This document shows positions 26,029 through 30,969 of a stretch of DNA of 64,000 nucleotides, piece after piece. The notes under the pieces were generated by a model. That model ran no database searches. It was given only the letters and a program-made list of their open reading frames with translations, and was not told the DNA's origin. The DNA is from Clostridia bacterium (GTDB lineage Bacteria; Bacillota; Clostridia; Christensenellales; Aristaeellaceae). The stretch spans positions 97,980 through 161,979 of the forward strand of contig JAFWEJ010000006.1 of NCBI GenBank assembly GCA_017512985.1. The letters run 5' to 3'. A program made the translations under genes and the position numbers. Positions within the stretch are counted from its first letter, which is position 1, and each line of letters opens with the position of its first letter.

Positions 26029-26577
26029 ATGAAGATCCTGATCGCGTCGGATATCCACGGCTCGGCAAAGTACTGCCGGGCATTGCTGGACCGCTATGAA
26101 AAGGAAAAAGCCGGCAGGCTCCTGCTGCTGGGCGACCTGCTGTATCACGGGCCGCGGAACGACCTGCCGGAGGAATACGCGCCGAAGCAGGTTATCGGAA
26201 TGCTCAACGGACTGAAGGATGAGATCCTCTGCGTACGGGGCAACTGTGAAGCCGAAGTGGACCAGATGGTGCTTTCCTTTCCTGTGATGGCAGACTACGC
26301 CCTGATGCCCCTGGGGGAGCGGATGATCTATATTACCCACGGACATGTGTACAACAAAGAAAACCTCCCGCCGATGAAGGCGGGAGATATCCTCCTGCAC
26401 GGGCATACGCATGTGCCTGCCTGTGAGGAGTTCGGCGGATATGTGTATATGAATCCCGGCTCCGTTTCCATTCCCAAGAACGGGACGCCCCGCGGCTATA
26501 TGACGCTGGAAGGGACGGACTTCACCTGGAAGACGCTGGAGGGAGAGGTGTTCAATCGGTATCCTGCCGGTAAGTGA
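26029..26577 (+). CDS. yfcE: YfcE-type metallophosphodiesterase
   Basis: 182 residues, the full length of the MJ0936/YfcE family of Mn-dependent phosphodiesterases. Motifs in order: ASDIHG, LLGDLLYHGPR, VRGNCE, YITHGH, LLHGHTH. These enzymes hydrolyse model phosphodiesters; the physiological substrate is not known. ATG follows GGAG. The last 26 bp overlap the 3' end of the convergent GH43 gene. Confidence 0.9.
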   Translation: MKILIASDIHGSAKYCRALLDRYEKEKAGRLLLLGDLLYHGPRNDLPEEYAPKQVIGMLNGLKDEILCVRGNCEAEVDQMVLSFPVMADYALMPLGERMIYITHGHVYNKENLPPMKAGDILLHGHTHVPACEEFGGYVYMNPGSVSIPKNGTPRGYMTLEGTDFTWKTLEGEVFNRYPAGK

Positions 26578-28039
26578 AACCGGAAAAGGAGGCTGAGCCG
26601 CCCGTTTCTTCCGTTGCGTACAGGAACAGGCCGAAGCGGCAGCCCGTGAAATGGTCCAGCGCGAAGGCCATGGTATGGACGGGTCCCAGGGGTTTCCATG
26701 CTTCACCTTCCAGGTATTCAAACTGCACTATGCCTTCATGCCCGGCAAAGCGGACGGACGCCCGCAGCCGGGCTTCCTTTTTGTCCCACGGAATCCGGGC
26801 GTATTCCTGTTCCTCCTGCTCCCGGGGTTTCCTCGCTTTCATGACCAGTGCATACCCTTCCTTTTCCCGGGTGACGCCGATCAGGCCGTAACTGCCGATG
26901 AGCAGGCACAGGCCGGCCACGTCGCCCGGGCGGACAGACGACGCGTCTAAGGTCACTTCCGCTGTGCAGCCGGGGAGTACGGTGCGCTGGGTGAGGGTAT
27001 TACGGGCGAACTCCAGCGTGCGGCTGACCTTGTCCGTGCGGATCACATAGGCGCCGTTTCCGGTTTCCCAGCAGCCGGCGCGGGGCTCGTGATTGAACTG
27101 CCAGACGTTCTTCAGCGCCGGGGAGGTAAAATCATCCCCGGCGAAAAGCGGCTGCGGGGTCCAGTCCGGCCGGGTGCAGGCGTTGGAAACTTCTTTGGCA
27201 ACTTCACCGAAGACCGGAAAACCGTATTGGTTCCATGTAACCGGAACGAGCACCGGGATACGCCCGACGGCGCCGCGATCCTGGAACAGCACGGCAAACC
27301 AGCGGCCGTCCGGCGTATCGACGATCCCACCCTGGGCGGCGCCGCTGTGCAGGCCGTCCAGGTCCGAATAAAGCACGTCACCGCCGGCCCAGACGCCTTC
27401 CAGGTCGTCCGTGATGAAGCAGGCTTCGGTCCGGAACCATTCCCGCAGGCGGGAGTGGATCAGGAAGAGGACATATTTCCCGTTGATTTTATAGAGGTGG
27501 GAACCTTCATACCCCAGAGGGCCGCCCGGCGCGTCCCGGAGAATGATCCGGTCGACGCCGCCCGGCTTCGGACCGGAAATGTCCTCCTTCAGCTCTGTCA
27601 GGCGGATATCCCGGTTGCCGTAGACGATATAGATCCGCCCGTCGTCATCAAAGAGCAGGGACGGATCGTGATAAATTCCATCAATATATTGCTTTGTCCA
27701 GGGGCCCTCGATGTTTTCCGCCGTGAAAAGAAAGGTCTTCGGCCACTCGTGGGCGATGAAGATGACATAAAACCGGCCGGCGCGGTACCGGAGAGAAGCG
27801 GCCCACATGCCGTGGCCGTAGGCCGTCTGTTCCCCCTCCAGCGTTTCGCCCGGGGTATGCTCCAGCGCTTCGTAGAGATAGGAGCAGATCTCCCAGCGGA
27901 TCAGGTCGTGGGACCTGAGGATGACGGCGCCGGGGAAAAAGTGCATGGTGGTGCTGATCATGTAGTATGTGTCTCCGACGCGGATGACGTCCGGATCCGG
28001 ATAGTCCATCCCGGTCAGGGGATTGAAGCCTTCTGCCAT
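26552..28039 (-). CDS. GH43 family glycoside hydrolase (beta-xylosidase/arabinofuranosidase-like)
   Basis: 495 residues without a signal peptide, so cytoplasmic. The five-bladed propeller has the GH43 triad: general base in YPDPDV (D15), pKa modulator in YHDPSLL, and general acid in LGYEGSHLYK. A C-terminal beta-sandwich (about 325-495, FTSPALKNVWQFNHEP) is of the kind found in xylosidases that act on imported xylo-oligosaccharides. It probably completes degradation of arabinoxylan fragments. Its 3' end overlaps the yfcE gene. Confidence 0.92.
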   Translation of the reverse strand: MAEGFNPLTGMDYPDPDVIRVGDTYYMISTTMHFFPGAVILRSHDLIRWEICSYLYEALEHTPGETLEGEQTAYGHGMWAASLRYRAGRFYVIFIAHEWPKTFLFTAENIEGPWTKQYIDGIYHDPSLLFDDDGRIYIVYGNRDIRLTELKEDISGPKPGGVDRIILRDAPGGPLGYEGSHLYKINGKYVLFLIHSRLREWFRTEACFITDDLEGVWAGGDVLYSDLDGLHSGAAQGGIVDTPDGRWFAVLFQDRGAVGRIPVLVPVTWNQYGFPVFGEVAKEVSNACTRPDWTPQPLFAGDDFTSPALKNVWQFNHEPRAGCWETGNGAYVIRTDKVSRTLEFARNTLTQRTVLPGCTAEVTLDASSVRPGDVAGLCLLIGSYGLIGVTREKEGYALVMKARKPREQEEQEYARIPWDKKEARLRASVRFAGHEGIVQFEYLEGEAWKPLGPVHTMAFALDHFTGCRFGLFLYATEETGGSASFSGFTYRQDTD

Positions 28040-28345
28040 TGTGACCGCCTCCGTCTGGCTGTTCCTGTTTTATGGGATCATAATGCTTCCTTTTCCGCGC
28101 ATTGTCAATGGGAAAGAGTTCTGAGGGATTACCCTGCCGCAGGCGGCAGTAAAGCAGATTCACCCCGGAAGTGAACGAATGACGCTCCGGCAGAGGTACC
28201 TGCCGTGGATTTGTGTCAAAATTCGCAAAAATTGATTAAAAACATCCATCGTTGTCCCAAAAGTGATGAATAACAACAAAACAGTTATTTACTTGCAATA
28301 TTCAAGTTGTTACAATGTAACGGTACAAGGAGGGCTCTGTACTCA
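28040..28345 (+). promoter_or_regulatory. AT-rich intergenic region with promoter and three inverted repeats, upstream of the radical SAM gene
   Basis: The last 80 bp are AT-rich. A likely promoter is TTTACT (28288-28293), 17 nt, TACAAT (28311-28316). Three inverted repeats lie next to one another: AATAAC-N9-GTTATT (28269-28289), ACTTG-N7-CAAGT (28291-28307) and GTTAC-AAT-GTAAC (28309-28321). The last overlaps the -10 box. They suggest dense regulation of the downstream RiPP pair. Nothing coding is seen here. Confidence 0.65.
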
Positions 28346-29491
28346 ATGGCTGAACCGATGAAGGGGCATGAATTCCTGGTCCGCTTAAAGGAGCAGGGAG
28401 ACAAACGGTATGAGTCTTTCGATACGCTCTTTCATTTTATGGACCAGAAAGCCAGGGAGAAGGGAATTCCCCTCAACGGCCAGTTTGAACTGACGCCGCT
28501 GTGCAACCTGGACTGCAGGATGTGTTATACGCACCTGACAAAGGAGCAGATGCACGGCGTGCCGCTGCTGACGGTGGATCAGTGGAAACAGCTGATGCAT
28601 GAGGCCTGGGAGGCCGGGATGGTCCGTGTGAACCTGACCGGCGGGGAATGCCTCAGTTATCCCGGATTCAAGGAACTGTACCTGTACCTGCACAGCCTCG
28701 GATGCGAGATCCGCGTCCTGACCAACGGGGTATTGCTGGATGACGGATGGATTGCCTTTTTCAAAGCGCATCCTCCCATCCATATCCAGATTTCCCTTTA
28801 CGGCGGAGATGAGGACACCTATGAGCGGGTTACCGGCCACCGGAAGTTTTCCGTGGTATCGGCCAATATCCGCAGGCTGATCGAAGCGGATCTGCCGGTG
28901 ACGCTTTCGATCACTCCATGCAAATACATGAAGGAAGGCATGGAGAACACAATCCGGGCCGCTCACGCGTTCGGCATTCCGTATTATATCAATCCGAACC
29001 TGATTGATCCGAAAGAGGAAACCGGCAGGGCGGGCGAAGACCACGACCTGGATGTGGATGATTACGTGAAGCTGTACCGGCTCCGGAATGAACTGCAGGG
29101 TGCGGAAAATATGTCCATTGATCCGGACCAGCTGCCGCCGCCGGGCGGGCCGGAACACGAATGCAGGGTTTTCGGGCTTAACTGCGGAGGCGGACTGTCC
29201 TGCTTCGATATTGACTGGAACGGCGCGATGTATCTCTGCAACTCATACCGTTCGGCCCTGTATTATCCGCTGGAGGAAGGATTCCTGCCCGCATGGGAAA
29301 AACTCCACCGGATCGCGGCGGAATGGCCCAGGGTGCAGGAATGCATCGGGTGCCCCTATGAAGAGGTCTGCACGAACTGCGAGGTCAGGAAAGCAGAGTT
29401 CGGCGAACCCGGAAAGCAACCGCTTGAATTATGCGAGCGAACCAGATACCTGGTCCGGCACGGCGTATTTTCAATAAATGAATGCATCTGA
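28346..29491 (+). CDS. Radical SAM/SPASM enzyme, probable RiPP maturase
   Basis: 381 residues from the ATG behind AAGGAGGG. The SAM-cluster motif is C53-x3-C57-x2-C60 (CNLDCRMC), followed by the GGE-like NLTGGECL. The C-terminal SPASM region carries further Cys for auxiliary 4Fe-4S clusters (C in HECRVF, NCGGGLSCFDIDWNG, LCNSYR, then CIGCPYEEVCTNCEVRK). No PqqD-like leader-binding domain is obvious at the N-terminus. A Cys-rich peptide gene begins 30 bp downstream in the same transcript, and this pairing is the hallmark of thioether-forming (sacti-/ranthipeptide-like) or other radical RiPP systems. No exporter or protease gene is adjacent. Confidence 0.9.
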   Translation: MAEPMKGHEFLVRLKEQGDKRYESFDTLFHFMDQKAREKGIPLNGQFELTPLCNLDCRMCYTHLTKEQMHGVPLLTVDQWKQLMHEAWEAGMVRVNLTGGECLSYPGFKELYLYLHSLGCEIRVLTNGVLLDDGWIAFFKAHPPIHIQISLYGGDEDTYERVTGHRKFSVVSANIRRLIEADLPVTLSITPCKYMKEGMENTIRAAHAFGIPYYINPNLIDPKEETGRAGEDHDLDVDDYVKLYRLRNELQGAENMSIDPDQLPPPGGPEHECRVFGLNCGGGLSCFDIDWNGAMYLCNSYRSALYYPLEEGFLPAWEKLHRIAAEWPRVQECIGCPYEEVCTNCEVRKAEFGEPGKQPLELCERTRYLVRHGVFSINECI

Positions 29492-29521
29492 AATGAAAGA
29501 ACAACCAAGGAGGAAACTGAA

Positions 29522-29716
29522 ATGGCAAAGAAAACTTATGAGACTCCGGTGGCGGATCTGCTTACCTTTGATTATACCGCACAGGTAACGGCAAACTCCG
29601 GCGGCGGAGACGCCAGCCACTGCACCGGCGGAAGGAACCCCGGCGGCTGCATGGGAAAGGGCTACGGGAATTGCGGCGGCTATACCAGCAACCCCGGCGG
29701 CTGCAACAACAACTGA
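29522..29716 (+). CDS. Candidate RiPP precursor peptide, Gly/Asn/Cys-rich core
   Basis: 64 residues behind AAGGAGGAAA. Residues 1-25 look like a leader (KKTYETPVADLLTFDY, then TAQVTA). From N25 on, the peptide is almost entirely Gly, Asn, Ser/Thr, Pro and Cys, with four cysteines (C34, C43, C51, C61). A motif N-P-G-G-C occurs twice (39-43, 57-61), and the end is C-N-N-N. It follows the radical SAM/SPASM gene by 30 bp and is closed by a strong terminator, so the two genes are one small operon. I infer that the Cys residues are cross-linked by the upstream enzyme; the product and its activity are unknown. Confidence 0.8.
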   Translation: MAKKTYETPVADLLTFDYTAQVTANSGGGDASHCTGGRNPGGCMGKGYGNCGGYTSNPGGCNNN

Positions 29717-29740
29717 CGCTTCATCTTTCCGCAAGGATCA

Positions 29741-29776
29741 AAATCCCGGCGCATGCTGCGCCGGGATTTGTTTATT
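29741..29776 (+). terminator. Intrinsic terminator of the RiPP operon (bidirectional)
   Basis: 13-bp perfect stem AAATCCCGGCGCA / TGCGCCGGGATTT with a 3-nt loop, then TTTGTTTATT. The reverse strand also has a short T-tract and may serve the opposing DUF4003 gene. Confidence 0.93.
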
Positions 29777-29783
29777 GTCCTGT

Positions 29784-30887
29784 TTATTTTTCCGGCTGCC
29801 GGCCGGCATCTGTTTCCGCCGGGCCGGCGTCTGTGCCTCCCGGAGCGGTTTCGGTTTCTTCCTGCTTGCTGTCCGCTGCTTTATCTTCCGCCTTATCCTT
29901 TGAACCGACGGCGTACTGGAGGAGCGTCTGGATGACCTGGACCGCGAAGGAGAAGCGGGAAGCCTGCTGTTTGGCAAACAGCATGTCCAGGGTGTTGGTC
30001 ATCACGGTAATGTTCACCCGGTCCGTGTCTGCGTACAGGTCGGACACGATCATAAGGGCATGCATGGCCCGTTCTGTTTTTTCCTTATCCCCGGATTTCC
30101 AGAGCTTCTGTTCCTCCAGGAATTCGTCCGCCGCTTTGACATCCTCCGCCAGCGCCGCGGCGGGAGCGTCCGCCAGGGAAAGGGCTGCGAGGGGAGCCAG
30201 TTCATCGGACCTGCCGTATTTAACCTCCGCTTCTTCCAGGGCGTTGAAAAGATCGATCACACGCTGCGCCTTTTCTTCAGGCGTACCGGCTGCCGCGGAG
30301 AGGACCTGGGCTGCTGTCTGGACGCCGCTGCCGCCGGAGAACTTTGCTTTCAGCGCGTCATAACACGCGTCCATATCTTCCAGCAGTTCATCGTCCGTCT
30401 TATCGGAATAGGCCATCAGCATGGCGAACACGCTGTCTGTTTTGTTGGTGAGCAGGCGGTGCTTTTTGTTCATCCGGCGGTAAATATCTTTTCCGCGGGC
30501 TGCTTTTTCCTCCGTCAGGGACCGGTCCGCCAGGTCGGTGAGCAGGAACGCGGCCAGCACCAGGTATTCAGATTTTTTGAAATTCCGCTTCAGCAGGCGG
30601 AAATAATCGTTGGCCAGGGCCATCCGTTCCTCCGGGCTGTCCCCGACGGCCAGCATGCAGGTCAGGAAGGGGCGGACTTTTCCCCGGAACTTTGAGAAGG
30701 GCCTCGTATACTTTTTGAGAATCTTACGGCAGTCTTTCAGGCGCTCCGCGTCCGCTGTATGCCCGCAGGCGCAGAAGAGGTTTGCGCATACGGACCAGAT
30801 GGCTGCGTCGTTGAACCGGAACGCCTTTTTTACCGTATCCCGGTTGGCGATATAGTCCGCGCAGATTTTTTCAAGCTCCGGTTTCAT
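29784..30887 (-). CDS. DUF4003 family protein
   Basis: 367 residues; start chosen at MKPELEK rather than the longer frame, giving the normal family start. All-alpha protein with the family block RPFSKFRGKVRPFLTCMLAV, PEERMALANDYFRLLKRNFKKSEYLVLAAFLL. A charged, low-complexity C-terminal tail of about 45 residues (Glu/Lys/Thr/Pro/Gly) is not part of the conserved domain. Function of the family is unknown. It is convergent with the RiPP operon and has its own promoter at 30970-30997. Confidence 0.8.
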   Translation of the reverse strand: MKPELEKICADYIANRDTVKKAFRFNDAAIWSVCANLFCACGHTADAERLKDCRKILKKYTRPFSKFRGKVRPFLTCMLAVGDSPEERMALANDYFRLLKRNFKKSEYLVLAAFLLTDLADRSLTEEKAARGKDIYRRMNKKHRLLTNKTDSVFAMLMAYSDKTDDELLEDMDACYDALKAKFSGGSGVQTAAQVLSAAAGTPEEKAQRVIDLFNALEEAEVKYGRSDELAPLAALSLADAPAAALAEDVKAADEFLEEQKLWKSGDKEKTERAMHALMIVSDLYADTDRVNITVMTNTLDMLFAKQQASRFSFAVQVIQTLLQYAVGSKDKAEDKAADSKQEETETAPGGTDAGPAETDAGRQPEK

Positions 30888-30969
30888 ATCGTTCTTCCTC
30901 TCTTTTTCCGGGCAGCGGGAGCCGCTCCGGCAGAACCTTCGGACGCCCGCAAAACAAAGCATCTCCGCG

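Follow-up and report, generated by a model that had tools for sequence, protein, structure and literature searches.

A radical SAM/SPASM enzyme–precursor pair from a Clostridia bacterium as a candidate RiPP cassette with relatives at loci of the linear polyphosphorylated peptide type

Introduction

Several described systems of ribosomally synthesized and post-translationally modified peptides (RiPPs) can be set beside the locus studied here, namely the linear polyphosphorylated peptides (LPP; Popov et al. 2026, PMC13381572), the sactipeptides, the ranthipeptides, the lasso peptides and tryglysin (literature on related systems: PMC13289728, PMC4289311, PMC8326336, PMC7533575). In LppB, residues N33 and D70 contact the YxxP leader. 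The locus lies in a 64,000-nucleotide stretch of the genome of a Clostridia bacterium (GenBank assembly GCA_017512985.1, contig JAFWEJ010000006.1, positions 97,980 to 161,979 of the forward strand), hereafter the window, and consists of a gene for a radical SAM/SPASM enzyme followed by a gene for a 64-residue peptide. A first-pass annotation, made from the letters of the window, had proposed that both form a RiPP maturase–precursor pair outside the named families. The comparisons presented below bear out the pair and support the interpretation in part, the cross-linked core that the annotation also inferred being a likely proposal; they suggest that the pair is probably a RiPP cassette, in which the SPASM enzyme would carry out a leader-guided radical modification at core Cys residues, and whose family appears to be grafted onto the LPP toolkit.

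Results

The first-pass annotation described a radical SAM/SPASM enzyme with C53, C57 and C60 and a Cys-rich C-terminus and, after 30 bp, a 64-residue open reading frame (ORF) with its own ribosome-binding site, a leader-like N-terminus, C34, C43, C51 and C61, two NPGGC motifs and a C-N-N-N end in a Gly/Asn-rich core. All these elements were recovered, the enzyme being complete, at the following positions of the window:

28346-29491, plus strand: putative radical SAM/SPASM peptide maturase, 381 aa from ATG (P0001), based on the ORF, profiles and alignments
28502-28525, plus strand: codons of CxxxCxxC (C53, C57, C60), the radical SAM cluster ligands, based on alignments
29183-29434, plus strand: SPASM region, C280 to C363, with seven invariant Cys, based on alignments
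29522-29716, plus strand: putative RiPP precursor, 64 aa (P0002), based on the ORF and the leader profile
29522-29599, plus strand: leader, residues 1-26, with the YxxP motif at residues 6-9; the exact leader/core border is a predicted one
29600-29713, plus strand: core, residues 27-64, with Cys 34/43/51/61, based on core comparison

The Cys-rich C-terminus holds seven residues in the SPASM pattern (C280, C298, C333, C336, C342, C345 and C363), which were invariant in 20/20 and 34/34 aligned relatives, and all ten Cys of the radical SAM and SPASM clusters were kept in 34/34. Radical_SAM was the sole Pfam match of the enzyme, and no named NCBIfam family was reached, the top score being 63.2 bits for the PqqE model against a cut-off of 381; among the matches listed, the 34 relatives matched general models alone (best E 2.6e-22). 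The closest solved sequence to these enzymes was the sactisynthase SkfB (E 4.6e-24), and they also resembled the PqqE, ScmE/F and WgkB models; PDB entries 5v1q and 5wgg we take to be SuiB and CteB, respectively. The sulfatase_rSAM model was not among the best 25 of the 67 models matched by P0001, and the anSME structure matched the enzyme profile with an E of 1.5e-7. Approximately 45 residues precede the radical SAM core, a length into which an N-terminal RiPP recognition element (RRE) would not fit. The comparison with the enzyme of its closest relative (L051, 69%) gave a pN of 0.18 and a pS of 0.57, which indicates that the window enzyme is under purifying selection.

The assignment of the N-terminus of the peptide as a leader also held, since it was conserved in 82 distinct peptides that share the pattern YxxP..F.Y...VxAS and carry hypervariable cores. 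The alignment was anchored on Y/F-x-x-P, so Tyr and Pro are not counted as conserved; of 103 distinct peptides, seven resisted division into leader and core and were left out of the core statistics, and two had no anchor. Counting from the Tyr, conserved columns extended to +19 (F+10 in 72/82, an aromatic residue at +12 in 71/82, V/I+16 in 76/82), with K-3, K-2, E+6, K+7, Y+12, an acidic residue at +14, A+18 and S+19 also kept; past +19 the entropy climbed to about 4 bits, and conservation was gone by approximately +23. Position +5 was A, V, I or L in 79/82 and therefore fits the RRE-binding motif [Y/W]xxPx[L/V/I/F/A] given in PMC13381572. Ser was found at +19 in 55/82; the window peptide has Asn at +19 and Ser at +20.

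Cys was present in 81/82 distinct parsed cores and at least twice in 73 (one in 8, two in 50, three in 16, four in 6 and five in 1). It accounted for 185 of 2813 core residues versus 8 of 2042 leader residues, and successive core Cys were mostly 8 to 17 residues apart. One core type, GNGDVGRGRGRGGGCDG..., was recurrent in 11 DNA versions with a mean pN of 0.13 versus a pS of 0.70, and because of this strong synonymous excess its product is kept by selection. Nearly unchanged as GNGDVGRGRGRGGGCDGVPYHRNxRTFSSGRNSGC, this core was found on differing leaders at L009, L012, L030, L031, L033, L035, L039, L041, L053, L082 and L083, an unusual conservation for a hypervariable family. Trp-rich, leader-bearing cores with no Cys or one Cys were also observed beside a Cys-type precursor (L049:700-894, minus strand, and L104:6345-6551). 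Core types track supported enzyme clades: the enzymes of the window, L051 and L052, all with four-Cys cores, form one such clade, and 11/11 enzymes labelled with a GGGCD-type core fall in one supported clade of 14 rows (no p-value is attached to this count). Enzyme and core thus diversify together.

Plain antibiotic-type names were rejected, since all 47 precursors stayed above an E of 0.001 against NCBIfam and Pfam, the best value, 0.0059, being to a flagellar protein. A query of 26 leader residues had no match among PDB chains, and those of the leader profile were three, all unrelated (E 0.26-0.42). When the leader hidden Markov model (HMM) was run over 2190 ORFs in 110 kb, comprising the window and ten other loci, only the window precursor and its paralogue, both HMM seeds, exceeded 10 bits (44.2 and 54.9 bits), and the next ORF scored 6.0.

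The search for co-conservation of the pair that the first-pass annotation had proposed was carried out, and homologous peptides were found to adjoin related enzymes elsewhere. A single-protein scan of genome contigs gave no relative; the alignment-based scan did find them, with 165 of 174 candidate stretches in named genome contigs encoding one, and 80 of these 165 were kept as loci. The leader HMM (at least 10 bits) detected a precursor in 72/80 loci on either strand and in 69/80 on the strand of the enzyme, with 59 of these 69 downstream and 10 upstream of it (model ends were a median of 71 bp apart). A precursor with leader and core thus stands beside a dedicated maturase and is conserved with it as a pair. 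The annotation had named two outcomes that would speak against it, no homologous peptide beside related enzymes or an enzyme clade of known non-RiPP function; neither was found, because the peptides co-occur with related enzymes and no non-RiPP function was named (63.2 versus 381 bits).

At E <= 1e-30, the enzyme was detected in 13/45 genomes of the genus and in 50/300 genomes and 19/50 genera of the family, with up to four copies per genome. In the order-wide scan, in which four candidates per genome were scored, at least 3/396 genomes were positive at 1e-90, and phage-type contigs gave one weak relative with 28% identity (L131). By title, 38 of the 80 named loci come from a ruminant host, two from horse faeces and one from Coriobacteriia, and L109, which carries every hub part (see below), belongs to the isolate Blautia sp. 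MSJ-9. The sets L005-L050 and L051-L130 (named contigs) overlap (e.g., G019 and the L051/L059/L074 record share coordinates), several loci come from one assembly in places, and the leader HMM was seeded from L005-L049 peptides; since locus sets overlap and share assemblies, our counts refer to loci and not to independent events. At L114, L116, L120, L124 and L126, distant enzymes have PqqD and HprK-like neighbours and no same-strand peptide by leader HMM; their precursors may carry another leader.

The recurrent neighbours of the relatives were an HprK-like P-loop protein, free PqqD-like proteins, a peptidase of the S26 type, an ABC exporter and PF14907, which we refer to as the hub. Where both flanks reached 4.9 kb or more (38 loci), PqqD was present in 31, the HprK-like protein in 27, the signal peptidase in 25 and all three in 23, with ABC matches in 24 and PF14907-like proteins in 15. 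A C-terminal PqqD fusion was found in 34/60 HprK-like ORFs, with PF05402 in 10/10 aligned fusions. The PqqD parts matched TbiB1, TfuB1, LppB and PbaB1 in PDB (E 1e-8 to 2e-5), and the RREs keep the equivalents of LppB N33 in 62/75 and D70 in 71/75, an equivalence read from the alignment and residue numbers. The peptidase motifs SMxP and HR[VI]..GD[NHY] were present in 42/46; its profile matched eukaryotic SEC11 chains, that is, the archaeal-type signal peptidase lineage, and its invariant Ser45/His85 are spaced nearly as the catalytic S29/H68 of LppS. The G020 peptidase was considered as a pseudogene and this was rejected, its in-frame TAA being the terminal stop. In four loci the radical SAM enzyme shares a single open frame with an HprK-like part (L084:4245-6128, L085:4266-6128, L086:674-2557 and L091:4260-6122); the L084 and L086 enzymes are identical.

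Pairs can also lie apart from a hub. In G020 (97% complete), one hub contains one enzyme and two precursors, another pair lies 3 kb on, and further bare pairs are found ~0.1 and 0.67 Mb from the hub. At L051, the bare pair is ~154 kb from hub L074 on the same contig, and in L052, the next closest relative, the window type of enzyme belongs to a hub operon that has three additional precursors. Within the genus, the full-length HprK-PqqD fusion (E < 1e-100) was present in 5/45 genomes, all enzyme-positive and with one copy each, and in 0/32 enzyme-negative ones; the count was restricted to full-length matches because partial HprK-like matches (1e-20 to 1e-28) occur in 8/32 enzyme-negative genomes. 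The peptidase was found in 7/13 enzyme-positive genus genomes, one copy each, with none in G000.

The assembly that contains the window (2.63 Mb, 17 contigs, 89.67% complete) holds exactly two enzymes of the window type at E <= 1e-5, with a mutual identity of 51%. A 33-row leader profile gave two clear matches genome-wide (E 3e-14 and 3e-12), each adjoining one of the enzymes, followed by noise at 0.25 and 1.14; the paralogous second pair is intact and likewise bare. No peptidase, RRE or kinase was found in the window, and none of the LPP type in the whole assembly, whose best exporter match scored 234 bits versus 918-988 for hub exporters with the profile of the same alignment. The first-pass annotation had supposed that maturation may use genes elsewhere, which fits the layout of the relatives; in this genome itself, a hub was not found. 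A true SCIFF ranthipeptide pair is also present, on contig C14 (L143:1091-1255, TIGR03973, 82 bits; L143:1471-2850, TIGR03974, 748 bits).

The remaining features of the locus, among them the 13-bp-stem terminator noted in the first-pass annotation and found again here, are as follows:

28288-28316, plus strand: promoter-like site, TTTACT-17-TACAAT with TG before the second hexamer; weak
28327-28334, plus strand: ribosome-binding site of the enzyme gene, aaggaggg, read from the sequence
29507-29513, plus strand: ribosome-binding site of the precursor gene, aaggagg, read from the sequence
29741-29769, plus strand: terminator stem-loop with 13 pairs (fold z = -3.5)

The promoter-like site is at chance level, with 2 found versus 1.3 expected in shuffles. 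One of 200 shuffles folds as well as the terminator stem, and the T run 3' of it is moderate. Both flanking genes are on the opposite strand: 26552-28039 (minus), which by its look may encode a glycoside hydrolase, and 29784-30962 (minus), an uncharacterised ORF of 392 aa.

Discussion

From what was directly observed, that is, the pair, the conservation of its leader, the hypervariable Cys-bearing cores, the co-conservation, and the composition and layout of the hub, we infer the following route. Recognition of the conserved leader would bring the SPASM enzyme to the 64-residue peptide, whose core it would modify by radical chemistry at Cys, most likely forming thioethers from Cys to varied partner residues. 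The PqqD-type RRE, often fused to the HprK-like kinase, would hold the YxxP leader, and phosphorylation of the conserved Ser at +19 may be the role of the kinase. The archaeal-type signal peptidase would remove the leader with a cut after +15, the LPP position, or after +19, where V-x-S or V-x-A would suit such a peptidase. The ABC exporter would act after leader cleavage, and where a hub exists it would serve in trans the bare enzyme–precursor pairs elsewhere in the genome. One may tentatively extend this to a modular RiPP factory, in which one LPP-like hub serves scattered cassettes, with every SPASM enzyme fitted to a hypervariable Cys-bearing core of its own, to give peptides both radically cross-linked and polyphosphorylated, and some genomes, the present one among them, keep cassettes without a hub; we put this forward as a possibility that may well not hold.

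Several observations weigh against a leader-guided modification at Cys on an LPP-type toolkit. No same-strand leader peptide was found in 11/80 named loci, none of the three hub genes (PqqD, HprK-like, peptidase) in 6/38 full-flank loci, and the strict GxxGxGK[ST] motif is present in only 36/60 HprK-like ORFs. SkfB and other known sactisynthases have an RRE of their own, and the window enzyme is without an N-terminal one. Its own assembly yielded neither an HprK-PqqD fusion nor a signal peptidase nor a dedicated exporter (PF14907 was not searched there), and the sole PqqD match falls on the RRE of the SCIFF maturase. Finally, one core has no Cys and eight have a single one, and neither a conserved acceptor residue nor a fixed Cys spacing was found: some 190 classes/offsets near Cys gave seven mild enrichments versus about two expected by chance, and fixed acceptor motifs (e.g., CX3D, C-x3-aromatic) were rejected for want of support in the spacing tests. 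These features of the cores, together with the resemblance of the enzymes to the PqqE, ScmE/F and WgkB models, would also suit the same RiPP pair with radical chemistry of a different kind (a C-C or ether cross-link, an epimerisation or a Cys rearrangement), the Cys forming disulfides or binding metal after export. We consider this unlikely, although a serious contender, given that Cys is the one recurring core residue (81/82) and that SkfB is the closest solved relative.

The missing hub could also mean that the pair is a stranded remnant in its own genome, the hub having been lost and the modified peptide undergoing neither trimming nor export. No hub gene was found in that assembly, while the peptidase profile matches 7/13 enzyme-positive genomes of the genus. 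Such a loss seems distinctly improbable to us, since both genes are intact with ribosome-binding sites and terminator, the comparison with L051 indicates purifying selection on the enzyme, the genome retains a second intact pair, and 10% of the genome may be unassembled and could hold the hub. The alternatives for this genome are a hub within the missing 10%, service by other proteins, or a product that is left unprocessed. The least plausible explanation, to which we give hardly any weight, is a chance neighbourhood of a non-RiPP radical SAM enzyme and a spurious ORF; the peptide is indeed unrecognised by NCBIfam and Pfam models, but the conservation of the leader and the co-location over many loci contradict it, as does the synonymous excess in the recurrent core.

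If the leader-guided modification on an LPP-type toolkit is correct, this family joins radical SAM/SPASM cross-linking with the logic of LPP and lasso peptides (YxxP leaders, discrete RREs, HprK kinases), two fields that are unlinked in the literature covered. In gut bacteria, its relatives often adjoin genes of the recently described peptide-phosphorylating pathway, which yields the testable idea of trans-served peptide cassettes. Because the cores paired with the enzyme family number in the tens, are unrelated and share one leader, leader rules and the choice of Cys partner should be learnable by comparison, and the cultured Blautia sp. MSJ-9 makes both testable. We found no description of a radical SAM/SPASM enzyme combined with an LPP-type toolkit in the literature covered, from which subscription papers are mostly absent.

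Comparison with known systems

The first-pass annotation judged the core to be unlike those of SCIFF and subtilosin, and the comparison agrees: the leader shared by the family carries many cores unrelated to one another, of which the window core is one. Sactipeptides (subtilosin A/AlbA, SKF/SkfB) share a radical SAM enzyme with an auxiliary-cluster domain and Cys-bearing cores; their leader and core are unrelated to those of the window precursor, and the enzyme remains below the model cut-offs (AlbA 46.8/850 bits, SkfB 58.3/300 bits). Ranthipeptides (SCIFF and PapB types) share a SPASM enzyme and a Cys-bearing peptide, and the PapB model was weakly matched by 19/34 enzymes (33.7/340 bits for the window enzyme). 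The window core, in contrast, lacks a six-Cys arrangement or CX3D pattern, having four Cys rather than the six in 45 residues of SCIFF (TIGR03974), and the SCIFF models were unmatched.

Lasso peptides of the paeninodin type share the YxxP-type leader, the PqqD-type RRE and the HprK and NTP-transferase partners, and the NCBIfam model lasso_cyano was touched by 10/33 leaders (best E 0.037). A macrolactam cyclase or B2 peptidase was not noticed among the recurrent neighbours, where no model search was aimed at them. Tryglysin (WgkA/WgkB) shares the SPASM maturase, and its precursor model was touched by 8/33 leaders (best E 0.0015); the window core, however, lacks the WGK motif, and the WgkB model gave 38.3/650 bits.

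LPP differ in that radical SAM, rSAM, SPASM and thioether are absent from the main text of PMC13381572, and in that their RRE is discrete, whereas RRE and kinase are often one protein here. According to the same main text, the LPP leader runs YxxP-xVLxHQxIxFETxxS, and beyond YxxP it differs from the family leader, YxxP-x[AV]EK.xF.Y...VxAS. The LPP gene set, that is, an SpI-like peptidase, a discrete RRE, an HprK-like kinase, an NTP transferase and an MsbA-like exporter, was not encountered at the window locus. The likeness lies in a conserved YxxP leader with variable C-termini and in the loci of the relatives, which correspond essentially to the LPP gene set published in PMC13381572, plus the radical SAM/SPASM enzyme.
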